Positions 6,354-34,736 of a stretch of 37,531 nucleotides of DNA are shown piece by piece (position 1 is the first letter of the stretch; every line of letters starts with the position of its first letter). This DNA comes from Anaerolineae bacterium (GTDB lineage: Bacteria > Chloroflexota > Anaerolineae > Anaerolineales > Villigracilaceae), in assembly GCA_003130845.1 (NCBI GenBank), contig QEXW01000107.1, positions 1 to 37,531 on the forward strand, read 5' to 3'. The notes beneath the pieces are model-generated. The model saw nothing but the letters and a program-made list of their open reading frames with translations, was not told the origin of the DNA and did not search any database. The translations under genes were made by a program, and so were the position numbers.

Positions 6354-6430
6354 CGGGGTGTGGCGCAGCTGGCTAGCGCGCTTGCTTTGGGAGCAAGAGG
6401 TCGTCGGTTCGAATCCGTCCACCCCGACCA
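6354..6430 (+). tRNA. tRNA-Pro (anticodon TGG)
   Basis: A complete 77-base cloverleaf. The acceptor stem CGGGGTG pairs with CACCCCG, the D stem is GCGC/GCGC, and the anticodon arm CTTGC-TTTGGGA-GCAAG carries anticodon TGG with G37. The T loop is TTCGAAT, the discriminator is A and the CCA end is encoded. The T stem GTCGG/CCGTC has one T-T mismatch at the second pair. It has its own promoter and a downstream hairpin. Confidence 0.96.
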
Positions 6431-18941: not shown

Positions 18942-20840
18942 TTATGGCCAAGGGATGGGGCCGATTTGGCGATAGTTGCGGGCTATCGGTTGTAAATCAA
19001 AGAAATTGATAGCACCATCGGCATTCAGGTCAGCCGCAGCGGGTAAAGTTCCGTTGTAGTTCATGCCGATGGTCATCGCGTCGAATTGGTCAATCACGTT
19101 GTTGGCGTCTATATCTCCAAATAAGAGTGTGACAGCTGTGAGCGAAAGACTCTGTCCGGCTGCAATGCTTATTCGACCTGTTGCCTGTAGGGAACCTTCG
19201 GCCTGTGCAAACAACAAGTAATTTCCGGGAAAGACTTCAGGGAACTGAAATGTTCCGTTGGCTTGGGTCGTTTGTGTCAGAACAAGGGATGAGTCTTCAC
19301 TCTTTAAGGTGATTAGGGCTGGCTTGCTAGAAACTACCTGTCCCAAGAGAATGCCATGCGTGGCAACCTCTGCGGTTGGCGAGGGGGTAGGTAGGTTGGA
19401 AGCGACGGTTAGAATGGCGCTGCGGGAGGCTAATTCGGTAAGTTCTTGCTCGTTGCGTGCAACACGGGCCGCGCAGGCGATGGTGGTTTGACCTTCACGC
19501 AGGCCCTGTATATCGAAGGTGAAAGCAACACCGTTGCTGGTGGCTTTGTATCCTTGGCTGCCAACGATGGCAATGATGAAAGCGCCAGCCGTTGGATTGT
19601 TAATGGCTACGACCGGGTCGTTGCCAAACAGATTCGAGGCCGCTAGATTGCTGATGCTTATCACCTCGGCCTGGTAGGTACAGGTAAATTCCGCGCCGGA
19701 GAGCCCCTCTTGGGGAACATTAACGAGCTGTACACCGGCTTGGGTGGTCTTGCCAATTTGAATTTCCGGCGTTTGGATTTGAACTTCGGCGTATGGTTCT
19801 ACCGGCGGTGGCTCGGAAGATTGCTGCCAACAATTTTGAGAGATGTATGGTATGGCGGGGTGCAAATCTGGCCAATCAACCAGGTTTTCGGAGTACCAGG
19901 CGTCCCAGGTATAAAAACCAAAGCCTTCTAGCCCAACGTTGATGGCTTGGCAGGAAACGGTTTGTAGTTCTTGCAATGTAAATTTGCGTGCGTATTTGCT
20001 GCCGGTGATGGTAAAGGTTTGTACAATCCAGACCAGCTCGGCTTTGGCTTGCGCCTTATTTAACCGAGCGCGGTCTTGCCGTAAGTAATTTAACGCTTTT
20101 TCGCAACTCCCTTCAGCGCCGCCGGCGCAGTGTTGCCAGGTGATGAAAACATCGGCGATTTGGTCAATTTCCTTGTCTTCCAGGCTTTCGTGACCATCTA
20201 TGTTGTCAATGTAATTCCAAACCTTGATGTCACTGCGTCCGAGCTGGGTGGTATATTCTTTGATTTGCCGCTTTAATCCCGCCATTTCTTGTTCGGTCAT
20301 TTTGCACGACCAATAGGGTTCGTGTGCGTTAATCATGCCTATCCAGTTCTTGTATTCTGCTAAGACGTTCATCATGGGTTTGAGCAAGTCAATGTTTCCA
20401 TCGGGGTATCCTGCCGGATAGGGCATGGAGCAGTTTTCACGGAGTTGGGCTTTGGCCGGGTAAATCACCACGTTAATTCCGGCATCTTTGGCGGCTTGCA
20501 TGAAGGACCGCCAAGAGGCTGGCCGGGCATCTACGCTCATTTGCTGGATGACGGTGTTGATGCCCATCGCGCGCAGGCGAGGCAAATCAGCCAGATTGCG
20601 CACTTGGTCAACCAAATAATACTGTTGGGTGTTCGATGCCAAGGGTGGTGTTTGGCTTTGGGATGGCGGGATGGTTGCGTCTTGCTGAGCGGGTGTTTCT
20701 GGTTTGCTTAAAGGCGGTTCTGTGTTTGTAGGCAACAATGAGAATGGACTTGTCGTCTCCGCATTTGCCCCGTTGAATGCAATCAGCACCAATAAAACGA
20801 TAAGGAACCCCCAGGGAATGCGAATCAGTTTCGACACCAT
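18942..20840 (-). CDS. Secreted barrel-like protein with cohesin-like and dockerin domains
   Basis: This is a 632-residue exported protein. Residues 1-28 form a signal peptide (IPWGFLIVLLVLIAFNGANA), followed by a Pro/Ser/Gln-rich linker. Residues 72-345 look like a TIM-barrel, glycoside-hydrolase-type domain (LRAMGINTVIQQMS, INVVIYPAKAQL, WIGMINAHEPYW, VWNYIDNIDG, GFGFYTWDAWY). Residues 355-490 resemble a cohesin-type beta domain (VQIQTPEIQIGKTTQAGVQL, LSGAEFTCTY). Residues 500-570 are CnaB/carboxypeptidase-regulatory-like. Residues 575-632 are a type I dockerin with two Ca2+ loops, GDIDANNVIDQFD and DLNADGAINFFDL. Substrate and catalytic acids are not identified. The ATG has AAAGGAAAGG upstream. 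It may act on or anchor to the surface polymer made by the neighbouring locus. Confidence 0.82.
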   Translation of the reverse strand: MVSKLIRIPWGFLIVLLVLIAFNGANAETTSPFSLLPTNTEPPLSKPETPAQQDATIPPSQSQTPPLASNTQQYYLVDQVRNLADLPRLRAMGINTVIQQMSVDARPASWRSFMQAAKDAGINVVIYPAKAQLRENCSMPYPAGYPDGNIDLLKPMMNVLAEYKNWIGMINAHEPYWSCKMTEQEMAGLKRQIKEYTTQLGRSDIKVWNYIDNIDGHESLEDKEIDQIADVFITWQHCAGGAEGSCEKALNYLRQDRARLNKAQAKAELVWIVQTFTITGSKYARKFTLQELQTVSCQAINVGLEGFGFYTWDAWYSENLVDWPDLHPAIPYISQNCWQQSSEPPPVEPYAEVQIQTPEIQIGKTTQAGVQLVNVPQEGLSGAEFTCTYQAEVISISNLAASNLFGNDPVVAINNPTAGAFIIAIVGSQGYKATSNGVAFTFDIQGLREGQTTIACAARVARNEQELTELASRSAILTVASNLPTPSPTAEVATHGILLGQVVSSKPALITLKSEDSSLVLTQTTQANGTFQFPEVFPGNYLLFAQAEGSLQATGRISIAAGQSLSLTAVTLLFGDIDANNVIDQFDAMTIGMNYNGTLPAAADLNADGAINFFDLQPIARNYRQIGPIPWP

Positions 20841-21100: not shown

Positions 21101-21135
21101 AGGGGTTGAATCATGATAAATTCATTTCAACCCTT
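21101..21135 (-). terminator. Proximal hairpin at the aminotransferase stop codon
   Basis: AGGGGTTGAA (21101-21110) pairs with TTCAACCCTT (21126-21135) over a 15-base loop, with one G-T pair, starting inside the stop codon of the aminotransferase gene. The T run is weak, so it may protect the 3' end or act together with the next hairpin. Confidence 0.5.
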
Positions 21136-22285
21136 AAGGTGGCATGGGTGTAGTGCTGAGAATCGTCTGTATTTCTTGGACCACGCTCATTACGTCTTCT
21201 TTTTTCATCATTGGGTAGAGTGGCAGGGTGATTTCGCGCCGGGCAATCTCTTCTGTGAACGGCAGGGCTGCCCCATTCACCAGGCTGCGATAGGCAGTGA
21301 AGCGATGGGTAGGGGGGTAGTGAATGCTGGTCTGGATGCCTTGGGCTTTAAGGTGTTCCATCACCTGTGTGCGCTCGATGTGGGCAGGCAGCAGGGCTGG
21401 TAGAATGTGGTACGAGGACTGACCGGCGTGAGAGGCAAAGGGGATGGTGACTTCCGGTGTGAGTTTTTGCATGGTCTCTCGATAAAGTTGGGTAAGTTCT
21501 GCGCGGCGGGCGTTATTGCGAGGGAGTTTTTTCAATTGTTCTCGCCCTAGCGCTGCCCGGATTTCGTCAATGCGGTAGTTGTACCCCAATTCGACCACGT
21601 CGTAACTGAAGGCGTGGCCTTTGTGCCGGTCCCAGGTGAGGGTGGTCATACCATGAGAGCGGAAGATGCGCAGTTTTTCGTACAAGTCTTCGCGGTTGGT
21701 GGTCAACATGCCGCCTTCGCCGGTGGTCATGTTTTTGTTCGAAAAGAAGCTGAAGCAGCCTATAGCGCCCCACGTGCCAAGTGGACGCCCTGCCAACATG
21801 GCACCAACCCCATGGGCATTATCTTCGATGACTTCTAACCCGTGTTCAGCAGCGATTTGCATGATGCGCAGCATGTCACACGGATAGCCAGCGTAATGAA
21901 CCACGAGAATGGCGCGCGTTTTGGGGGTGATGTGTTTTTGAATTTCTGCCGGAGAGATGTTGAAATCTGTGTAACCATTCACATCGGCAAAGACGGGGGT
22001 GGCCCCCACGTAGCGGACGGCATTTGCAGTAGCGACGAAGGTCAAAGATGGCACAATCACTTCGTCACCTGGCCCGAGGCCGAGCGCCAAGCAGGCCATG
22101 TGTAAAGCTGCCGTTGCGTTGGAGACGCTTAGGGCATATTTGGCACCGGTAAAGGCAGCAAATTCTTGCTCAAATTGCTGGGTAACACCACCCATCGTGA
22201 GCCATTTACTCTCTAGTACTGCCAACACCGCCGCCGATTCTTCAGGGCCAAAGTCAATATCAGCCAGGGGAATGCGCCAATTCAT
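21134..22285 (-). CDS. DegT/DnrJ/EryC1/StrS family sugar aminotransferase
   Basis: This PLP-dependent enzyme transfers an amino group to a keto nucleotide-sugar. Motifs include VLESKWLTMGGVTQQFE, VSNATAALHMACLALGLGPGDEVIVPSLTFVA, VIEDNAHGVGA and the Schiff-base lysine in FFSNKNMTTGEGGML. From the ATG at 22285 it has 383 residues, the family size. An in-frame start at 22315 also exists, but 22285 has GGAGGAG 8 bases upstream and forms an ATGA overlap with the stop of the nucleotidyltransferase gene. With the LegB-like dehydratase two genes upstream it probably makes an NDP-4-amino-4,6-dideoxyhexose, as LegC-type enzymes do. It is the last gene of the operon. Confidence 0.92.
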   Translation of the reverse strand: MNWRIPLADIDFGPEESAAVLAVLESKWLTMGGVTQQFEQEFAAFTGAKYALSVSNATAALHMACLALGLGPGDEVIVPSLTFVATANAVRYVGATPVFADVNGYTDFNISPAEIQKHITPKTRAILVVHYAGYPCDMLRIMQIAAEHGLEVIEDNAHGVGAMLAGRPLGTWGAIGCFSFFSNKNMTTGEGGMLTTNREDLYEKLRIFRSHGMTTLTWDRHKGHAFSYDVVELGYNYRIDEIRAALGREQLKKLPRNNARRAELTQLYRETMQKLTPEVTIPFASHAGQSSYHILPALLPAHIERTQVMEHLKAQGIQTSIHYPPTHRFTAYRSLVNGAALPFTEEIARREITLPLYPMMKKEDVMSVVQEIQTILSTTPMPP

Positions 22286-23001
22286 ATCTTTATCTCCTCC
22301 GGTAAAAATTGGCAACGCATGGTTTCAAAATCGCGCGTGGCTTGTTCATAGTCATCGGGGCGACCGAGGTCTTGCCAGTAGCCGCTAAACTCATATCCCA
22401 CCACTTTTTCACCGGCGGCAAGCAGGATTTTGACCAGGTCAGGAAAATCTAGGTATTGGCCTTTGGGGATATATTGCAGGACGCGCGGTTCGAAGACGTA
22501 AATGCCCATGCTGACGCAGTAATCGTAGGTTGGTTTTTCGATGTAGCCGTTGATTTCGGGTTTGCCGTTCCACTGGATGACGCCCAGGTCAATTTTGACT
22601 TTGCGCTGATGAACGGCAATGGTGGCGGTGGCGCGGTGTTGGCGGTGGAAATCAATCACATCGGCAAAGCGCAGGGTGGTCAGCACATCTCCATTGGTCA
22701 CCAGGAAGGTATCGTTTAAGCCCGTGATGAGTGCAATTGGCCCGGCTGTGCCGAGGGGCGTTTCTTCGTAGCTGTATTCGATTTTTAAGCCCCATTGCTG
22801 TCCATCTTGAAAAAAGGTGCGTAAAAGGGAAGAGAGATGTCCTACCGTCAGGGTTACATGGTCAATTCCGGCCATTTTCATTTGCCGCAGAATCACTTCC
22901 AAGATGGGAAATTCCCCAATTGGCATAAGGGGTTTGGGTAGGATTTTGGTGTAGGGAGCCAGGCGCGCTCCTTTGCCGCCGGCTAATACGACTGCTCGCA
23001 T
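22282..23001 (-). CDS. Sugar-1-phosphate nucleotidyltransferase
   Basis: This 239-residue protein has the nucleotidyltransferase fold: the N-terminal MRAVVLAGGKGARLAPYTKILPKPLMPIG carries the GGxGxRLxP-type nucleotide loop and the PKP signature, then TPLGTAGPI, FLVTNGDVLT with the metal-binding Asp, and GYIEKPTYDYCVSMGIYVF. It lacks the C-terminal left-handed helix of bifunctional GlmU. It activates a sugar-1-phosphate with an NTP; the base (dTTP, UTP, CTP or GTP) cannot be read from the sequence. It lies 9 bases after the dehydratase gene and overlaps the aminotransferase start by 4 bases. Confidence 0.9.
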   Translation of the reverse strand: MRAVVLAGGKGARLAPYTKILPKPLMPIGEFPILEVILRQMKMAGIDHVTLTVGHLSSLLRTFFQDGQQWGLKIEYSYEETPLGTAGPIALITGLNDTFLVTNGDVLTTLRFADVIDFHRQHRATATIAVHQRKVKIDLGVIQWNGKPEINGYIEKPTYDYCVSMGIYVFEPRVLQYIPKGQYLDFPDLVKILLAAGEKVVGYEFSGYWQDLGRPDDYEQATRDFETMRCQFLPEEIKI

Positions 23002-23010
23002 AATTTCCTC

Positions 23011-24006
23011 CTAAAATTCGTATACGCCCACACGGTATAAGTCTAGATGCTGGCGTATCCATGTGATGGTCTGGTCGAGACCATCATCTAAATTGACTTG
23101 AGGGAACCAGCCCAGCACCTGCTTGGCCTGGGAGTTATCCGATAAAAGGCGATAGACTTCAGATGCTTCTGGACGCAGGCGTTGTTCTTCGACTTGGATT
23201 TGGACCGGGCGGTTGACTTTGGCGATGATTTTTTCTACCAAATCAGCAATGCGAATTTCTGAGCCAGTGCCGAGGTTGATGGTTTTGCCTTCAATCCCCG
23301 CTGTTTGCGCCGCCAGTAGAAAGCCGTTGACCGTATCTTGTACAAAGGTAAAGTCACGTGTGGTTTGGACGTTTCCTAATTTGATGACGGGGAGAGTGAG
23401 CGCTTGAGTAATCACCGCCGGAATGACGGCGCGCGCTGATTGACGCGGCCCGTAGGTGTTGAATGGACGTAGAATAACGACGGGCAAGCCGAATGCACAG
23501 TGAAAGCTTTCAGCGAGTTTATCGGCCCCAATTTTGCTGGCCGAATACGGGGATTGTCCTTGCAGCGGGTGCGTTTCACTGATGGGAACTTGCCGGGCGG
23601 TTCCATAGACTTCACTGGTCGAGGTGTGTACCAGTCGTTCTACCCCTGCTTCTCGGCAAGCATTTAGGACGTTGAGTGTTCCAATCAGGTTGGTTTGCGC
23701 GACTTCGACCGGATGGTAATACGAGTAGGGAATGGAAATCAGCGCGCCCAGGTGCAAGACGACCTGACAACCCTCGATTGCTTTGCGCACGGCATGTTCA
23801 TCACGCAAATCGCCGCCGATGATTTCCAACTGGCTGCGGATTTCCGGTGGTGTCAGTTTGAGCAGGCCGAGGTCGGCGCGAGAGTTGTAACGCACAAACG
23901 CGCGCACGCGTGCCCCTTGAGCAACGAGCTGTTCCACCAGGTGACTGCCGATAAAACCGCCTGCACCGGTTACTAGGACTTTTTTTTCATGCCAAAATGG
24001 GTTCAT
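23011..24006 (-). CDS. NAD-dependent sugar 4,6-dehydratase/epimerase, LegB-like
   Basis: This 331-residue extended SDR has VTGAGGFIGSHL for NAD binding, HTSTSEVYGTARQVPI, and YSASKIGADKLAESF with the YxxxK pair. The run RPFNTYGPRQSARAVIP also matches my memory of the LegB (nucleotide-GlcNAc 4,6-dehydratase) group. It is therefore likely to form a 4-keto-6-deoxy sugar for the aminotransferase in the same operon. The true substrate could instead be another NDP-hexose. Its ATG lies 20 bases inside the 3' end of the sugar transferase fusion gene, so translation is coupled. Confidence 0.87.
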   Translation of the reverse strand: MNPFWHEKKVLVTGAGGFIGSHLVEQLVAQGARVRAFVRYNSRADLGLLKLTPPEIRSQLEIIGGDLRDEHAVRKAIEGCQVVLHLGALISIPYSYYHPVEVAQTNLIGTLNVLNACREAGVERLVHTSTSEVYGTARQVPISETHPLQGQSPYSASKIGADKLAESFHCAFGLPVVILRPFNTYGPRQSARAVIPAVITQALTLPVIKLGNVQTTRDFTFVQDTVNGFLLAAQTAGIEGKTINLGTGSEIRIADLVEKIIAKVNRPVQIQVEEQRLRPEASEVYRLLSDNSQAKQVLGWFPQVNLDDGLDQTITWIRQHLDLYRVGVYEF

Positions 24007-26044
24007 GTTGTTTCACTTCGAGTAAGGTTCGTTTGCTGTAACAGGTGGCAATATCGGGGTTGCTTCTCTCTGCGCAGTCTTGGTCGGTGCAAACCCCCAG
24101 AACGGGTTGGAGATTGAAGCGGTGACCGTTAATTTGGTAAGGTTTCGAAAGAGAATTGAAAATCCGTTTGCCGACAATTTCTACTTCTTCAAGACGGGCT
24201 AGGTTTTCTACAATGAGAGCAAATTGGTGTTCTCCAAAGCGGGCGAGTGTGTCACTATCACGTTTGCAGTGTGTTAGCCGTTTGGCAGCCTGTACTAGCA
24301 CCTCATCGCCGTACTTGCGTCCGAGGGTGCGGTTGATGTCGCACAGGCCTTCTAGGTCTATGAATAGGATGGCAACATGCGTATTGTAACGGCGGGAATA
24401 CGCCAAAGAGTGCCGTAGGCGGTCTTGCAGCAAGTAGCGGTTCGGGAGTTGGGTGGTGAGGTCGTGAACGGCTTTGTATTCCAGATGGTCGCTGCGCCAG
24501 ATGGCATCATGGTTTTCGTGGACGGGCTGGGTGATTTGTTTATCTACCATGCGTAACAAGTCATCGAGAAAAATCAGGCGGATGCCATAGGCACGACAAA
24601 AGTCGAAGATGTATTCATCAAGTTTGGGATTAGCAGCCGGAATGGTCGAGACGATGACGCCAATGTCATGCTTTTCCACCAAAGTGGGCAGGTCGGTAAT
24701 GCCGCCCATCATCCAATAGCCACCTACTCGTAAACCATGCAAGGTGGGATTGGAGTCATCTATCACCCCGACAATCGAAAATGCCGAGCGAAACATGCGT
24801 CGTTTCAGCAGCCATCCAGCAATCTGACTGCCTTCCCCGCCACCCAAGAGCAGCACACGTTCGCCGAGGGTCATTTGATTTTGGCGCCAATTTAACCAAC
24901 GGTTGGCAATGCCGGAGAATAGGCGCAACCGATAGCGAACGGCAATGAAGCCCACTTGTGCTAGCATACACGTCAAAATCACCATGCCCCAATGGGCGGT
25001 TGGCAAGCCAAGCAGGTGCATCACAGGAGGAAAGGTTTCAAGCGCCAGCAATACCAGCAGGGTGAAAAAGCCGGAAGCCAGCAACCCCAACCCGTCTTCT
25101 GAAGTTGAGCGCGACCACAAGACTCTATTTTGGCCAGAGAGAACATTCAGCGCGCTGAATAGGAAGGTCAGCAAAAAGGATAGGAATAAAATCGCGCGCC
25201 ATGTCCAGAAGGGAGCATCAAGCGGTTTGAAGATGAGACTGGAAATTTCAATGGCGGTGAGGGCAACCATGAAATCGGCAATGAACCAATTGATGTGCAA
25301 GTTTGCCAGCCGCGAAAAAGGCCCAGCAAATAAGTATCCTTCAGGAATTTTTGCGCCGGTGATGCGCGGAATCAGGATGGCGATTGTCCAGAAGATGATG
25401 TCCAGGTCGGTGAAAAACGAATGATAGCGAACATATAACTGGTCTAGGCGCATTTTGTTGGGCAAAATGCTTTGGAAATAATCCTCCATCAAATTGCTAG
25501 AGGAGAGCAGTTTTTCTTCGTCATGATAAAGAACGCTGGCTGGGCTGGTGATGCCTGGACGCACGGAGAGAATTTCTCTTCGAGCGTCTTCAGGCCAGGC
25601 TTTGGCAATTTCGACATCTTCTGGACGTGGACCGACCAGGCTCATCTCGCCCTTAAGAACGTTCCAGAGCTGGGGAAATTCGTTGATTTTGGTATATCGC
25701 AGCCAGGCACCCAGCGGGGTGATGCGGGTATCACCCTGGGCGGTAACGCGCGGACCGGCATAACTTTCTGGGCGCTCATACATGGTGCGAAACTTGAGAA
25801 TTTTGAATGGCTTGCCATCTTTTCCTGCGCGTAGACCGCGATAGAATACGGGACCCGGAGAATCTCGCTTGATAAGAATAGCGATGATTACCCCGATGGG
25901 CGCCAGTAAAATAATGCCAATCAGCGACATGATGATGTCGAACAAGCGTTTGACAGCCCGGCGAGTGAGCATTCCTAGTTCGGGTCTTTCTACAATTTGT
26001 GCCTGCGGGGTTGCTTTCGGTTTGAGCGATTGCGCGCGTACCAT
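23987..26044 (-). CDS. Priming sugar transferase fused to membrane/Rossmann module and degenerate GGDEF domain
   Basis: This 685-residue protein has an unusual order. Residues 26-228 form a bacterial sugar transferase (phosphoglycosyl transferase): re-entrant hydrophobic helix (33-57), KILKFRTMYE, PQLWNVLKGEMSLVGPRPE (124-142), RPGITSPASV. Such enzymes load the first sugar-1-phosphate onto undecaprenyl phosphate. Residues 250-370 hold about four TM segments and 394-500 a CoA_binding_3-type Rossmann fold (RVLLLGGGEGSQIAGWLL, VGVIDD). In known large priming transferases this membrane/Rossmann part precedes the catalytic part. Residues 525-660 are GGDEF-like, with HDLTTQLPNR and FIDLEGLCDINR, but the signature reads GEHQF (604-608). 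The catalytic dyad position reads Asn121-Glu122. The gene has its own promoter and a GGGAGGAT ribosome-binding site. Confidence 0.88.
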   Translation of the reverse strand: MVRAQSLKPKATPQAQIVERPELGMLTRRAVKRLFDIIMSLIGIILLAPIGVIIAILIKRDSPGPVFYRGLRAGKDGKPFKILKFRTMYERPESYAGPRVTAQGDTRITPLGAWLRYTKINEFPQLWNVLKGEMSLVGPRPEDVEIAKAWPEDARREILSVRPGITSPASVLYHDEEKLLSSSNLMEDYFQSILPNKMRLDQLYVRYHSFFTDLDIIFWTIAILIPRITGAKIPEGYLFAGPFSRLANLHINWFIADFMVALTAIEISSLIFKPLDAPFWTWRAILFLSFLLTFLFSALNVLSGQNRVLWSRSTSEDGLGLLASGFFTLLVLLALETFPPVMHLLGLPTAHWGMVILTCMLAQVGFIAVRYRLRLFSGIANRWLNWRQNQMTLGERVLLLGGGEGSQIAGWLLKRRMFRSAFSIVGVIDDSNPTLHGLRVGGYWMMGGITDLPTLVEKHDIGVIVSTIPAANPKLDEYIFDFCRAYGIRLIFLDDLLRMVDKQITQPVHENHDAIWRSDHLEYKAVHDLTTQLPNRYLLQDRLRHSLAYSRRYNTHVAILFIDLEGLCDINRTLGRKYGDEVLVQAAKRLTHCKRDSDTLARFGEHQFALIVENLARLEEVEIVGKRIFNSLSKPYQINGHRFNLQPVLGVCTDQDCAERSNPDIATCYSKRTLLEVKQHEPILA

Positions 26045-27659: not shown

Positions 27660-28304
27660 TCATTGGTGAATGTAATATCGAAACAATTTGCCTGTCGTCG
27701 CGTAAGGTGTGCCAATGTGCAGTTGCACTTCCTTTTCTAGCAAGAAACCAAACCGTGTATAAAATCGAATGGCTGGCAAGTTATCGTGCTCGGTGAGCAA
27801 AAAAATCTGGTTGAAACCTCGTTCTTTCGCATCTTGTATCAAGCGTTCTACCAGCGCTTCAGCAATGCCTGTGCCGCGGAATTCGGGCAAAACCACAATC
27901 GGACGTAGTTCATAGGAATGATTGACTGCTGTGAACGAAGAGCGGTTGGGCTTTTTTCTCCGGAAAATTAACTCATGCACCTCAATCAAACGTCGGAAGA
28001 CTTGTATTACGATGTGTGGGTTTTCTAAAATATATTTTGCGACGTAAAACATCAGAGCAGGCGCGTGGAACAACAGTTGACGGCGAAAGAGGGTTGGCTC
28101 CCACACTCCGCAAATATAACCGGCAAACTGTCCATTCATTTTTGCAACGTAACCCGCCGCTCCTTTCTGTGTAATCATAGATTTGTAGTGGTATTCTAAA
28201 ATTTGTATACCGGTTTGACCTTTGAGTGAAGAGTTCAGATAGGTAATATGTGCATTGGCGGCCAATTTACAATCATCGTAGTCCAGCGGCTGAATACTTA
28301 TCAT
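27660..28304 (-). CDS. GNAT family N-acetyltransferase
   Basis: This 214-residue protein carries the GNAT acetyl-CoA loop LRPIVVLPEFRGTGIAEALVERLIQDA and the following NQIFLLTEHDNLPAIRFYTRFGF, both diagnostic. The N-terminal half (MISIQPLDYDDCKLAANAHI, AGYICGVWEP) fits the fold, with a long helical insert around residues 80-130. Placed between two GT4 genes, it probably acetylates an amino sugar or its nucleotide precursor, for example the product of the DegT-type aminotransferase in the same locus; this is inferred from position. Confidence 0.82.
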   Translation of the reverse strand: MISIQPLDYDDCKLAANAHITYLNSSLKGQTGIQILEYHYKSMITQKGAAGYVAKMNGQFAGYICGVWEPTLFRRQLLFHAPALMFYVAKYILENPHIVIQVFRRLIEVHELIFRRKKPNRSSFTAVNHSYELRPIVVLPEFRGTGIAEALVERLIQDAKERGFNQIFLLTEHDNLPAIRFYTRFGFLLEKEVQLHIGTPYATTGKLFRYYIHQ

Positions 28305-29655: not shown

Positions 29656-30603
29656 TTAGGCCGTTTTTTGCAGATATTTTTCTCGCTGTTCTGAGACGCA
29701 TTTTGGCCAGTCTTGTTCGCAGATAGGCAGTTTGCCATTCGCATAAAACCAGAGCATTCCATCTGCTTTGGAGAGTGTGCTGTTGGCAGGAAAACGCTCC
29801 TTCAGCCAGTGAATGGTGTGTCGGAATGCTGGTTGCGCTGCTAGGCCTCGAAATATAGGATGAAAAACAACCCGTTGCCGCACCAGTTTGGCCTGCAAGC
29901 CCATCCGAAACTTGAATTCATTGATGCTTTCGGGGGCGTCCAGTGAGTGCAGTGAGAAAAAAATGCTCTTGATGCCTGGCATCGCCAAGAGATTGCAACT
30001 GACCTGATAAAAAAGAGCATTGTTAACATGTGCATTGAGGAATTTCTGGCGCGAAGCGGCGTATGGAACGTAAAACGTCTCATCTATCTGGCAGGTAATC
30101 AATGCTGCTGCTAATTCACCGTTCACTAAGGCGCCCCAAGCAATGAAGCCCGGCAACCCCTTTGCAGATAAGCAAAGCCGTTCCCAAGTGGCTTTGCTCA
30201 TGCTACTCAGGCGGTTTTGCCGGCTGAGTGTATCTTGCTGCAAAGCCCACCCTTCATCGGCCAGCCGCTCAAAGGGAATTTCTTCCACTGTTGCGTTGCT
30301 TAAGCCACGCCGAACGCCATTGCGTGCTTGTGGCTTTAACAAATCGAGGTGATAGGGAGGTTCTAAGATGACGTGATAACTTACCATTCCCTCTGGGGCA
30401 GTGATAGGGGTGGAATAGCGTAAGGCCAGCGCGTTGTCTTTTGTTTGCAGTTCTCTCAACTCTTCTTCGCAAGGCTCAATCAGCCAACCGTAAGGAAAGG
30501 CTTGCAAGATGTGCGGAGCAACATCGTACCAGTAGCTACTTGGAGTGCGGTAGACATGATGCCCCTGGCGGCGGAGCCACTCTGAATACGTATCTGGATT
30601 CAT
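29656..30603 (-). CDS. FemAB-like GNAT-fold transferase
   Basis: This 315-residue protein resembles the FemAB/Acetyltransf_6 group, which carries GNAT folds acting on lipid-linked or cell-wall sugars. Visible features are YHVILEPPYHLDLLKPQARNGVRRGLS, the acceptor-side motif FIAWGALVNGELAAALITCQ, YVPYAASRQKFLNAHVNNALFYQV, and FSLHSLDAPESINEFKFRMGLQ, which closely fit the family's C-terminal half. Its ATG overlaps the stop of the Wzz/BY-kinase gene by 4 bases (ATGA), so translation is coupled. The donor could be an aminoacyl-tRNA or acyl-CoA; this cannot be decided from sequence. Confidence 0.78.
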   Translation of the reverse strand: MNPDTYSEWLRRQGHHVYRTPSSYWYDVAPHILQAFPYGWLIEPCEEELRELQTKDNALALRYSTPITAPEGMVSYHVILEPPYHLDLLKPQARNGVRRGLSNATVEEIPFERLADEGWALQQDTLSRQNRLSSMSKATWERLCLSAKGLPGFIAWGALVNGELAAALITCQIDETFYVPYAASRQKFLNAHVNNALFYQVSCNLLAMPGIKSIFFSLHSLDAPESINEFKFRMGLQAKLVRQRVVFHPIFRGLAAQPAFRHTIHWLKERFPANSTLSKADGMLWFYANGKLPICEQDWPKCVSEQREKYLQKTA

Positions 30604-32375
30604 ACACCCTCCTTTTGTGGGATGGTTTGTATTGGGCTGGCGAATTGTACGTAATCATATTCAGGAATGTTCCGATTGATGATAGCGCCTAAAATGTGCG
30701 TTTGGCAGCGTTTGAGCTGTTGGCTTGCCTCTACGAACGCGCTGACGTTGATTTTCCCGGGCTGAACAATCAGCAAAACGCCGTCCATGTGCGAGGCTAA
30801 CCAGAGTGAATCGGCATGCGAGATGGCGTCGCCATCAAAAACGATTAAATCGGCTTGTGATTTCAGAACCTCTAGTACGGTTGGGAGATGGGATGTTTGG
30901 TAAAGGATTTCCTTGTTTTCGGTTTTGCCGGCAGGCAGCACCAGCAAATCACCATTGACACCGTTTGGATAGCGGCGCAGTGGAATTTCTTCTACTTTTC
31001 CCTCCAAAACTTCGGCGAAGCCTACTTCGTTGTCTAATCCGAGTAGGGTGTGCAGACGTGGATGCCTAAAGTTCGCATCAATCAGAATGACTCGCTTTCC
31101 CTGTTGTGAATAAGAGAGCGCCAGATTGGCGGCAACGGTGGTTTTTCCTTCGCGTTGGCTTGTGCTGGTAAATAATAAGGTGTGTAGCGTCTTTTTGTTA
31201 CCGACCGATTCAAGCAGGGCGGTTAGTTTATGAAAAATTTGCGCCTGTGTAGAAGAAGGTGCCTTTTCTAAGAGCAGACCTTTTTTGGGGTGCCGTTGAT
31301 GGGGGATTTTGATAAGCGTGGGTTGCCCAAGTAATCGTTCGATTTCGCTGGCTGCTTTAACGGTGTTATCAAGGTAATGAATAGCCAAAACGCCACCAGA
31401 TGCCAACATTAAACCTACCAGGCCAGCAACAGCCATATAAAACAACAATTGCGGGCGCACAGGTTCTTCAGGTGGTGTAGCCGGTTCAACCAGAATGAGA
31501 ATGGGGGTATTTTGCAGGCGCGTTAATTGAATGCTCTGCAGGTTATTCATTAAGTTGAGATACAGTTGCTGATAGAGATTGAGTGTGAGTTGTAGGCTGG
31601 CAATCCGCACGTCCTCTGAGGTCGTTGCTCCGTAGGGCGTTGGTCGGCCCACGAAAATCAGGTTGGTTTGAATTTCTGTGTATTGGCTGAGCAAGGCCCT
31701 GGCTTGTGCCAGTTGCGCTTCTTTTTCGGCAATCACTTCGCGCTGGGCGGAGTTAGGGTTGGGAGGATATTGTGCAATTTCTCGTTCGAGTTGTGAGACT
31801 TCTGCCTGAAGTTGGGAAATCTGCTGATTGACGAAATTCAATTGTTTGTTGATGCTCTCCTCGTTGATGCCTTTGATTTGGCTTTGTAACTCTTTAATTT
31901 GCGCCAACGCGTCCTCGATGCGCACATTGAGCGCATTCTCATACGTGGAATAGCGTCCTTTTTGCGATTCAGTGTCTTTTTGAATCAACACATCAATCAA
32001 TGTGTTGGCAATCTCTGCAGCATGTTGAGGATTGTTTGCCTCCACCGTGACTTTGACAACTTGCGTATTGCCCACTTGTGTCACCGTCACGTTTTGGGAG
32101 TCAATTTCGATGCCCAATATGCGTTCGGCCTCTTCGATAATTGGTTTGGTTTTGATGAGTTCAATGTATGTGCCAATCATCTGCTGGTCGCTCAGATACA
32201 CCGGTTCAGCATTGCTGGCGTTGCGCGAGCGAGTGATTAAGATTTTTGCAGTGGCTTCATACACAGGCGTTTGCACTTTTGCGCCAGCGTAGCCAACCAG
32301 CACACTTAAGACAAACCCTGTGATTAGAATGAATAGCCACTTTTTTACCAGGTAAATCAATTCTTGCAGGCTCAT
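30600..32375 (-). CDS. Chain-length determinant fused to tyrosine-kinase-like ATPase (Wzz/BY-kinase)
   Basis: This 591-residue polysaccharide co-polymerase has TM1 at 13-31, a periplasmic domain with coiled coils at about 150-235, TM2 at 311-333, and a cytoplasmic P-loop domain from about 395. It should set chain length and regulate export with the Wzy protein. Walker A is TSQREGKTTVA (Lys411). Walker A' reads IDANFRHPR (432-440), with Asn where the DxD motif has its second Asp, and Walker B reads IVFDGDA (511-517) without the usual proline. The C-terminal tail has only two tyrosines (Tyr573 and Tyr575), not a full cluster. ATP binding is likely; strong autokinase activity is doubtful. The next gene overlaps by 4 bases. 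Confidence 0.9.
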   Translation of the reverse strand: MSLQELIYLVKKWLFILITGFVLSVLVGYAGAKVQTPVYEATAKILITRSRNASNAEPVYLSDQQMIGTYIELIKTKPIIEEAERILGIEIDSQNVTVTQVGNTQVVKVTVEANNPQHAAEIANTLIDVLIQKDTESQKGRYSTYENALNVRIEDALAQIKELQSQIKGINEESINKQLNFVNQQISQLQAEVSQLEREIAQYPPNPNSAQREVIAEKEAQLAQARALLSQYTEIQTNLIFVGRPTPYGATTSEDVRIASLQLTLNLYQQLYLNLMNNLQSIQLTRLQNTPILILVEPATPPEEPVRPQLLFYMAVAGLVGLMLASGGVLAIHYLDNTVKAASEIERLLGQPTLIKIPHQRHPKKGLLLEKAPSSTQAQIFHKLTALLESVGNKKTLHTLLFTSTSQREGKTTVAANLALSYSQQGKRVILIDANFRHPRLHTLLGLDNEVGFAEVLEGKVEEIPLRRYPNGVNGDLLVLPAGKTENKEILYQTSHLPTVLEVLKSQADLIVFDGDAISHADSLWLASHMDGVLLIVQPGKINVSAFVEASQQLKRCQTHILGAIINRNIPEYDYVQFASPIQTIPQKEGV

Positions 32376-33515: not shown

Positions 33516-34736
33516 CTATCCGGCTGTAGAGTTGGTCAAAGAACCAATCTGTGTACCTACCGGCGCGAACTTGCCATGCTCGTAGAGCCAAAGAAAGGCG
33601 GATGCCAGCGCTAGCATGATATGGATTTGGGTGTGTTGGTACGTCACTGCGCCTAATTCGAAAAACAGCAGAATCAGCAAATAGGCCAAGAAGAAATTTC
33701 GAATTCCGGTGCGTTCGTTACCGATTTTGAACAATTTGATAATCAGATATACATAAAACACGTAATACAAGATTAAGCCTACCAGACCTAAATTCACCAT
33801 CATCTCGATAAAGTTGTTGTGTGCATACACATCATCGAGCACATTCGAGAACAAATAAGCGAAATTGTTCAACCCATGTCCCAAAATGGGTTTGAACTGA
33901 AACCACTTCCAGCCGTTTTCTATCATCATGTAGCGAATTAACGTAGAAGCATCTGCCTCTTCTGGGCCGCCGCGGAAAAAGTCGAACAGCCCCTCGAAGC
34001 GTACACCGATGGTATTGTACAAAGTGGGGATGCTCAAGACACTCCAAACGCCAGCGATGAGCAGCACGAAGAACAAGAGCAGATACAGCACAATCCCCCC
34101 ACGATTGGTTTCCCAGTTTTTAAAAATCATGATTAACAAGAAGAATACGACCGGTACGAGAATATATTTTCTTCCCCCAGTCAGAGCAGTGATGTAGAGC
34201 AGAACCAAAAACATCATTAAATTGAACGGCAGAATTTTTCGGTTGCCATAAAACAAAAGCCACACCACACAGCACAGAGATAGCATGAGGAATGTGGCAA
34301 TAATGTTGGCATTCCCAAATAGCTCTCGGCCAAATCGCCCTTCCGAGTCGAAGGAGATGCCGTAAATCAGTAGATAGAAAACCAGAAAAAGCGGAAAATA
34401 AGAAAAGAAACTAAAAATGCGCTGGAAATCGGTCTTCGTTTGCACATATTGCGCAAAGGCAAACGTTACCAGCCATGTTACAAAGAGCAAATACAGAGCC
34501 GAAAAAACATGCTTTGTGCTGGCAGCATACAAACTTGAAAAGACTCCCATCAGAAAGAGGACGAAATACCAAACCATATAAGCCGTGATTTTTAATGGCA
34601 GTTGCCTCAAGAGGGTTTTCAAGACTGATAGTCCTAAAAACGAATACAGTGGCACCTGTGTGACAATGCGGGGGAAGGTGTCCAGTGGTACAAAAAAGAA
34701 TAAGATGTACATTCCTGCAAAGAAAGATAAGAGCAT
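33516..34736 (-). CDS. O-antigen polymerase/ligase-like membrane protein (Wzy-type)
   Basis: This 406-residue integral membrane protein has about ten to twelve hydrophobic segments and a large periplasmic loop in the second half. That loop contains GHGLNNFAYLFSNVLDDVYAHNNFIEMMVNLGLVG, the characteristic H-N-x-(F/Y) region of the Wzy/WaaL family, preceded by the arginine-containing TLIRYMMIENGWKWF. The protein probably joins lipid-linked repeat units in the periplasm, with chain length set by the Wzz-type protein two genes downstream. Sequence alone does not separate polymerase from ligase; the context favours polymerase. Spacing to its neighbours is 9 and 22 bases. Confidence 0.82.
   Translation of the reverse strand: MLLSFFAGMYILFFFVPLDTFPRIVTQVPLYSFLGLSVLKTLLRQLPLKITAYMVWYFVLFLMGVFSSLYAASTKHVFSALYLLFVTWLVTFAFAQYVQTKTDFQRIFSFFSYFPLFLVFYLLIYGISFDSEGRFGRELFGNANIIATFLMLSLCCVVWLLFYGNRKILPFNLMMFLVLLYITALTGGRKYILVPVVFFLLIMIFKNWETNRGGIVLYLLLFFVLLIAGVWSVLSIPTLYNTIGVRFEGLFDFFRGGPEEADASTLIRYMMIENGWKWFQFKPILGHGLNNFAYLFSNVLDDVYAHNNFIEMMVNLGLVGLILYYVFYVYLIIKLFKIGNERTGIRNFFLAYLLILLFFELGAVTYQHTQIHIMLALASAFLWLYEHGKFAPVGTQIGSLTNSTAG

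Follow-up and report, generated by a model that had tools for sequence, protein, structure and literature searches.

An Anaerolineae phosphoglycosyl transferase with asparagine at the nucleophile position, followed by a CapD-like membrane module and a degenerate GGDEF domain

Can the enzyme that loads the first sugar of an exopolysaccharide carry, on the same chain, a domain through which a nucleotide controls it? This question is raised by a gene on the reverse strand of a 37,531-nucleotide stretch of Anaerolineae DNA (contig QEXW01000107.1; the window, meaning the whole stretch that was analysed). Positions 23987-26044 are an open reading frame (ORF) without interruption, encoding 685 amino acids from an ATG, with a phosphoglycosyl transferase (PGT) domain, four transmembrane (TM) helices, a Rossmann domain and a GGDEF-like domain in that order from the N to the C terminus (Table 1). 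A first-pass annotation had read this order from the sequence and proposed direct nucleotide control of exopolysaccharide initiation. The order was borne out by Pfam, in which both Bac_transf and GGDEF were found, by an AlphaFold2 (AF2) model and by full-length homologues. We propose that the protein is an initiating monotopic PGT that acts on a 4-amino-4,6-dideoxy sugar and whose GGDEF domain is a receptor for cyclic di-GMP (c-di-GMP); to this reading, as to the conjunction of a catalytic PGT with c-di-GMP binding, we give a probability of about 0.38. Taken singly, the PGT domain is probably catalytic, and the chance that the GGDEF domain binds c-di-GMP is put at slightly better than even.

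Full-length matches were found in three other genomes of the genus (G009, G002 and G008, at 85%, 64% and 52% identity), all in frames without internal stops, and the complete PGT-to-GGDEF arrangement was present in four of the 11 genomes of the genus. The AF2 model of the 685-residue protein contains long helices at 247-271, 279-302, 313-336 and 349-388 and alternating strands and helices at 396-504. The expected four helices and Rossmann-like alternation were thereby seen, in a model (mean predicted local distance difference test score, pLDDT, 60.8) that is of good confidence in the PGT part only. The Rossmann domain had been called CoA_binding_3-type. No match to it was given by CoA_binding_3 (PF13727), even when the module was scanned alone at E<=1, and for this reason the label is valid only through relatives, namely through the profile comparisons given below and through a fusion protein (L126) whose module does match PF13727 (2.5e-9).

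What might a GGDEF domain do in such a protein? Alignments with chains of the Protein Data Bank (PDB) confirm the register of the GGDEF motif and of an RxxD motif; R595 and D598 of the latter are kept in four of four fused proteins, and the cyclase motif is lost in all four. Because the cyclase motif is absent, the domain would be at most a nucleotide receptor. Comparison with G009 gave a nonsynonymous rate (dN) of 0.125 with the synonymous rate (dS) saturated, and comparison with G002 gave a dN/dS of about 0.18 at a dS of 1.8; these values point to purifying selection on the domain, within the limits set by silent sites at or near saturation. By analogy, the closest working precedent for it is PelD, in which four TM helices are joined to a degenerate GGDEF domain that binds dimeric c-di-GMP via RxxD (PMC8461298). 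Like the window protein, PelD is a four-TM membrane protein whose GGDEF domain lacks the cyclase motif and keeps RxxD (PMC8461298). The two differ in that PelD has a GAF domain, for which no Pfam match was found in the window protein, and in that binding is shown for PelD and predicted for the window protein. PelD is not known to have a PGT domain.

Direct nucleotide control of exopolysaccharide initiation is plausible in view of the kept RxxD, the PelD precedent and the three PilZ proteins found above cut-off in the same genome, which also encodes GGDEF proteins with intact motifs (L007, L008). No c-di-GMP riboswitch was found in the window with Rfam at gathering thresholds. A c-di-GMP-gated PGT was taken as the most likely single mechanism because of three precedents: PelD; the EpsW-EpsZ pair, where a partner promoting the PGT dimer has been proposed as the means of control (PMC12802240); and WbaP, whose domain of unknown function (DUF) is thought to be responsive to uridine nucleotides (PMC10942596). 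EpsW-EpsZ shares with the proposed window protein the direct post-translational control of an initiating PGT (PMC12802240); there the control lies in a separate phosphorylated receiver protein, and here it would lie in a domain of the same chain. According to this mechanism, a dehydratase, a nucleotidyltransferase and an aminotransferase would make a nucleoside diphosphate (NDP)-linked 4-amino-4,6-dideoxyhexose beside the PGT, which on the cytoplasmic side of the membrane would load undecaprenyl phosphate with the sugar-1-phosphate, perhaps through another residue (e.g. E122) or by direct, non-covalent transfer. The GGDEF domain, no longer a producer of c-di-GMP, would use RxxD to bind it in the manner of PelD and would then switch the PGT on or off through dimerisation or through movement of the Rossmann/four-TM module. 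For synthase-dependent polysaccharides, control by c-di-GMP is well described; how Wzx/Wzy pathways are controlled after translation is not yet fully understood (PMC12802240). In the literature searched, no precedent was found for c-di-GMP control of lipid-linked polysaccharide initiation through a GGDEF domain of the same chain. If the proposal is true, a PGT with its own degenerate GGDEF domain would be a direct link of c-di-GMP to the Wzx/Wzy pathway.

Several observations weigh against this reading. The GGDEF match spans profile positions 1-132 of 161 and leaves the last part of the fold unmatched, and structure prediction of the domain alone reached a pLDDT of 38.8, with no usable model of a binding site. 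Retention of RxxD is weak evidence. The cyclase relative 5m3c of the PDB has the motif too, which is therefore probably ancestral; and since 40 of the 135 GGDEF columns do not vary at all among the four fused proteins, two kept residues are only mildly informative. Among 51 distinct members of the PGT family to which the protein belongs, 47 have no GGDEF domain, so the domain is not needed for the core function. Lastly, the Asp-Glu dyad, stated to be present in all members of the PGT superfamily (PMC10519829), reads N-E in the window protein.

A rival reading is a working PGT whose GGDEF domain binds no nucleotide and has a structural role or serves protein-protein contact (dimerisation), as one of the several appendages that the family has at its C terminus. 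This is a serious possibility. It accords with the variety of C-termini in the 51 members, four of which have GGDEF, 26 have neither a tail of at least 35 residues nor a CxxC tail, and 21 have short tails, several of them helical or with CxxC; it also accords with G008, where the metal, base-contact and GD positions of the GGDEF domain are all replaced. Against it, RxxD survives in each fused protein, the most degenerate copy included, and the domain is apparently under purifying selection. Two kinds of tail recur among the family members (L033, L034, L035, L037, L067, L087; L070-L074): a short one with FQCxxC and a helical one in which the pattern WL..xD/xE is seen.

That the active site of the PGT has Asn in place of Asp is absent from the first-pass annotation; it bears on whether sugar loading is of the usual kind. 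N121 aligns with the Asp of the catalytic Asp-Glu pair of PglC (8e37_B). PglC mutants with Asp changed to Asn are reportedly inactive. Asn occupies the nucleophile position in 51 of 51 family members and Asp does so in 54 of the 55 other PGTs of the same alignment, for which 125 frames were reduced to 106 by merging those with identical cores (e.g. L013 with L016 and L038 with L009); the count covers the family places whose sequence was read, second copies in G042, G049, G050 and G058, for example, lying outside it. Outside the family, N-E was read in three of 71 tree rows. These three (L136, L153, L156) are small PGTs of other phyla with N-E inside otherwise normal motifs, and they form a separate group (support 100), so that on a quick tree the change arose at least twice. 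A further 19 PGTs are all D-E, including 12 of the WcaJ type from the phylum and two of the same genome (L002, L003). The first motif pattern had missed eight loci (L002, L003, L049, L058, L103, L107, L137 and L147), seven of which proved to be D-E with a looser pattern that L049 did not match; overall, Asn was found at the position in three of 90 non-family PGTs, locus L049 being unread.

Around this position the active site is intact. K84, R116, E122, P124-Q125 and P139-R140-P141 are kept in all 51 members, K84 and R116 aligning by manual counting with K59 and R88 of PglC, and D36 and P49 of the DX12P re-entrant helix motif (PMC12802240) are each present in 50 of 51, the remaining row being a gap. 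The PGT is the best-conserved domain of the fused proteins: identity of the other three to the window protein is 72.1-95.1% in the PGT, 40.6-84.2% in the TM helices, 50.4-90.0% in the Rossmann domain and 42.4-81.5% in the GGDEF domain. The intact remainder of the active site and this high conservation speak for a working enzyme with altered chemistry. Since Asn replaces the Asp nucleophile, catalysis would have to use another residue or direct non-covalent transfer, unless the domain is non-catalytic.

The latter case, a pseudoenzyme that binds a nucleotide sugar or undecaprenyl phosphate without transferring anything, and whose role is to scaffold or regulate the adjacent dehydratase or another PGT, we consider doubtful. 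In its favour are Asn in all 51 family members and the fact that the chemistry could be done by other PGTs of the same genome, at least four of which are D-E (L002, L003, L004, L005); against it stand the retention of the other counted active-site residues, the rank of the PGT as most conserved domain, and the recurrence of N-E within normal motifs in the separate group of small PGTs. The statement that the Asp-Glu dyad is universal (PMC10519829) is challenged by an entire clade in which Asn takes the place of the nucleophile, whether its members are pseudoenzymes or users of a more varied chemistry. To return to the c-di-GMP-gated PGT, its most far-reaching form would be that this Anaerolineae clade works without an Asp nucleophile, its neighbouring cassette providing a 4-amino-4,6-dideoxy sugar (perhaps linked to GDP) as substrate, and that in one genus it is switched by c-di-GMP on a retired GGDEF domain of the same chain; as a whole this is unlikely.

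The possibility that the domain is an active diguanylate cyclase, with c-di-GMP synthesis and sugar loading on a single chain, was rejected as very improbable. The homology to GGDEF domains is significant (Pfam; phmmer against PDB chains), and the residues that we take to be the first metal-binding Asp and the base-contact Asn are kept in three of the four fused proteins. Active diguanylate cyclases have D/E and E at the third and fourth motif positions. There the four proteins read H-Q, N-Q, H-Q and E-R, GG[DE]EF being replaced by a different sequence in each (Table 1). An assembly or frame error joining separate genes, which had been raised as a possible refutation, found no supporting evidence and is ruled out for practical purposes, because three other genomes of the genus show the same order, without internal stops, at 52-85% identity.

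Is the protein, as first suggested, a WcaJ/WbaP with its domains permuted? Like the window protein, the large monotopic PGTs WbaP, WcaJ and EpsZ combine a monoPGT domain with a four-TM bundle and a Rossmann-like DUF, and they initiate polysaccharides (PMC10942596, PMC12802240). The contrast drawn with WbaP and WcaJ was borne out, since in these the four TM helices and the DUF precede the PGT domain (PMC10942596). The window protein differs from WbaP, WcaJ and EpsZ in its reversed order, with the module C-terminal to the PGT, in a module closer to CapD, in Asn at the nucleophile position and in its GGDEF tail. With the membrane dehydratases of the PglF/CapD/FlaA1 type it shares the four-TM-Rossmann module; it differs from them in the absence of Polysacc_synt_2, for which no Pfam match was found in the protein, and a separate LegB-like dehydratase gene adjoins. 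Small and bifunctional PGTs (PglC; Bi-PGTs with domains fused at either end, PMC10942596) resemble it in its placement among small PGTs on the tree and in C-terminal extra domains, and differ in that it has a fused dehydratase-type membrane module, a GGDEF relative and the dyad N-E.

The modules of 51 PGT-family, 15 WcaJ-type and 8 CapD-type proteins were scored against one another. The family profile gave the CapD-type modules 54.9-112.2 bits (median 83.1; 8/8) and WcaJ-type modules, from other phyla plus one of the same genome, at most 45.4 bits (median 6.8; 13/15 reported); in the reverse direction, family modules scored a median of 84.2 bits with the CapD profile and 26.2 with the WcaJ profile. 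This first contrast overstated the difference, because the WcaJ modules came mostly from other phyla and the CapD modules from the phylum itself, some of them picked as matches to the query. When 12 WcaJ-type modules from within the phylum were taken instead, they scored 40.3-59.4 bits with the family profile (12/12) and the gap to CapD shrank (median 47.3 vs 83.1 bits), its direction unchanged; the profile of these 12 gave family modules a median of 48.9 bits. Consistent with this, hhalign of the family module against CapD returned a probability of 99.9 with E 3.8e-33, and against same-phylum WcaJ E 9.7e-20. By these profile comparisons, all three kinds of module are homologous and CapD is nearest. 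The permuted-WcaJ reading is thus not the best one and was set aside, the module being closer to CapD/PglF-type dehydratases and PGT genes in the phylum preceding or being fused with CapD-type genes.

Such fusions were found twice. A 909-residue natural fusion of Bac_transf, a four-TM-CoA_binding_3 module and Polysacc_synt_2 is encoded at L126:1962-4688 in a genome of the same class (G252), and a second (L098/L129) reaches into the dehydratase domain at a contig end; the family module profile gave the two 166 and 175 bits. A CapD-like gene lies directly downstream of a small PGT gene at L109 and L110 (by reading) and at L127. On the quick tree, from which one short family row was left out, the 50 PGT-family rows form one group among small PGTs of the phylum (Shimodaira-Hasegawa-like approximate likelihood ratio test, SH-aLRT, 98). 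The two PGT-CapD fusions lie near the family and are not its closest rows, so that a single fusion origin is not established. A likely history would begin with the joining of a PGT and CapD; the dehydratase domain would then have been lost, and GGDEF added later in a single genus. On the tree, however, the rows with GGDEF group (94) with two rows without it (L012, L068), so that loss of GGDEF or a second gain is also possible. The N-terminal module common to large PGTs and PglF-like dehydratases has been called puzzling (PMC10942596); the PGT-CapD fusions and the dehydratase-less family suggest a route that connects them.

There is a hint that the GGDEF domain came from a neighbouring cyclase gene. 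At one of 51 loci (L012/L144, genome G011), a GAF-GGDEF protein with a GGDEL motif (L144:2521-3789, reverse strand) is encoded directly upstream of a GGDEF-less family PGT. That gene is upstream, whereas the fused domain is C-terminal, and its product is no closer to the fused GGDEF domain (67.0 bits) than is L006 of the genome that holds the window (68.6 bits).

How widespread is the arrangement? Matches to the window protein at E<=1e-60 were found in 47 of 152 genomes of the taxonomic family, at 53 places as counted from the result rows. Four of these run through GGDEF, all in one genus, and the other 49 stop at residues 466-516. An architecture search had been proposed for the full order: without GGDEF it is common in the taxonomic family, and with GGDEF it is rare. 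In a sample of the class, matches of this strength occurred in 31 of 396 genomes, the one in G252 being to the PGT-CapD fusion. In 200, 198 and 199 genomes of three other phyla (thresholds 1e-38, 1e-40 and 1e-40), the matches listed covered the PGT domain only. Among plasmids, 26 records matched, none covering 80% of the protein, and the five rows listed were PGT domain only; a peptide-pattern search of viral contigs gave one weak 37-residue match for GGDEF and none for the TM-Rossmann module. The titles and beginnings of abstracts searched mentioned no PGT-GGDEF protein, no such PGT family and no N-E dyad; they did not cover the superfamily survey of O'Toole (2021, PNAS), so that a prior description is possible. 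The parts of the protein are of known kinds; their combination, the dehydratase-type module behind a PGT and the family-wide Asn are without precedent in the literature searched.

The gene lies in an operon-like run that also encodes glycosyltransferases, a GNAT protein and Wzz/Wzc-like and Wzy-like proteins (Table 1), probably an exopolysaccharide operon of the Wzx/Wzy type. At 47 of the 51 family loci, the start of a LegB-like gene lies within 400 bases of the PGT stop codon and in the same orientation; 46 of these genes are 59-100% identical and the one at L081 30%, and none is present at L016, L019, L020 and L027. Where 600 bases or more were available downstream of a comparison PGT, a LegB-like gene followed it at 0 of 16 loci of the WcaJ type, 0 of 34 small D-E loci and 0 of 1 small N-E locus; the two PGT-CapD fusions have no downstream sequence. 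Of seven wider neighbourhoods, five (L139, L140, L141, L143 and L145) have both the nucleotidyltransferase and the aminotransferase gene; L142 lacks the two, and L144 ends inside the dehydratase gene. Because a dehydratase and an aminotransferase are encoded, the product of the cassette should be a 4-amino-4,6-dideoxy sugar nucleotide. Its nucleotide is uncertain and possibly GDP, the best NCBIfam match of the nucleotidyltransferase being mannose-1-phosphate guanylyltransferase at 153.7 bits, far under the cut-off of 440. The GNAT protein is a candidate for N-acylating the amino sugar; no homologue of it was found in the seven wider neighbourhoods.

Table 1. Features of the PGT gene and of the surrounding gene run, in window positions
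Feature	Position	Strand	Evidence
Whole gene, PGT - four TM - Rossmann - degenerate GGDEF	23987..26044	-	ORF; Pfam; three further genomes with same full-length order
PGT (Bac_transf) domain, residues 32-224; re-entrant helix motif D36-X12-P49	25373..25951	-	Pfam E 1.2e-55; phmmer to PglC and WbaP chains; conservation
N121-E122 at site of the PGT Asp-Glu catalytic dyad	25679..25684	-	Alignment with PglC 8e37_B; N in 51/51 family members
Four predicted TM helices, residues 247-388	24881..25306	-	AF2 secondary structure (of low confidence in this region); matches CapD-type module by profile
Rossmann domain, residues 396-505, most similar to the N-terminal module of CapD/PglF	24530..24859	-	Hidden Markov model (HMM) and hhalign comparison
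Degenerate GGDEF domain, residues 525-654	24083..24472	-	Pfam E 4.9e-27; phmmer to PDB GGDEF chains, best 3.5e-21
I-site-type motif RDSD, residues 595-598	24251..24262	-	RxxD in 4/4 fused proteins
Degenerate active-site motif GEHQF replacing GGDEF, residues 604-608	24221..24235	-	GEHQF, GENQF, SDHQF, NDERF in four fused proteins
LegB-like NAD-dependent 4,6-dehydratase gene, 20-base overlap with PGT gene	23011..24006	-	TIGR04180 425 bits, under cut-off 475
Sugar-1-phosphate nucleotidyltransferase gene	22282..23001	-	Pfam NTP_transferase 2e-41; in 5/7 wider neighbourhoods
DegT/PseC-like sugar aminotransferase gene	21134..22315	-	Pfam DegT_DnrJ_EryC1 4.8e-124; in 5/7 wider neighbourhoods
GNAT acetyltransferase gene	27660..28304	-	Pfam Acetyltransf_1 5.7e-18
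Wzz/Wzc-like chain-length and P-loop protein	30600..32375	-	Pfam Wzz, GNVR, CbiA
Wzy_C polymerase/ligase-like protein	33516..34736	-	Pfam Wzy_C 1.8e-13

Promoter-like sites were not enriched between positions 20800 and 27700, where three were found against 6.0 expected from shuffles. A tRNA gene at 6354-6427 on the forward strand is the sole Rfam match in the window at the gathering threshold. Two further proteins, both encoded on the reverse strand, were observed in the gene run. One, of 632 residues (18942-20840), lies at the end of the polysaccharide genes and has weak cohesin, dockerin and carboxypeptidase-regulatory-like matches. The other, of 315 residues (29656-30603), has no Pfam match at E<=0.01, and homologues 45-63% identical to it are encoded near the PGT in L139, L141 and L143.

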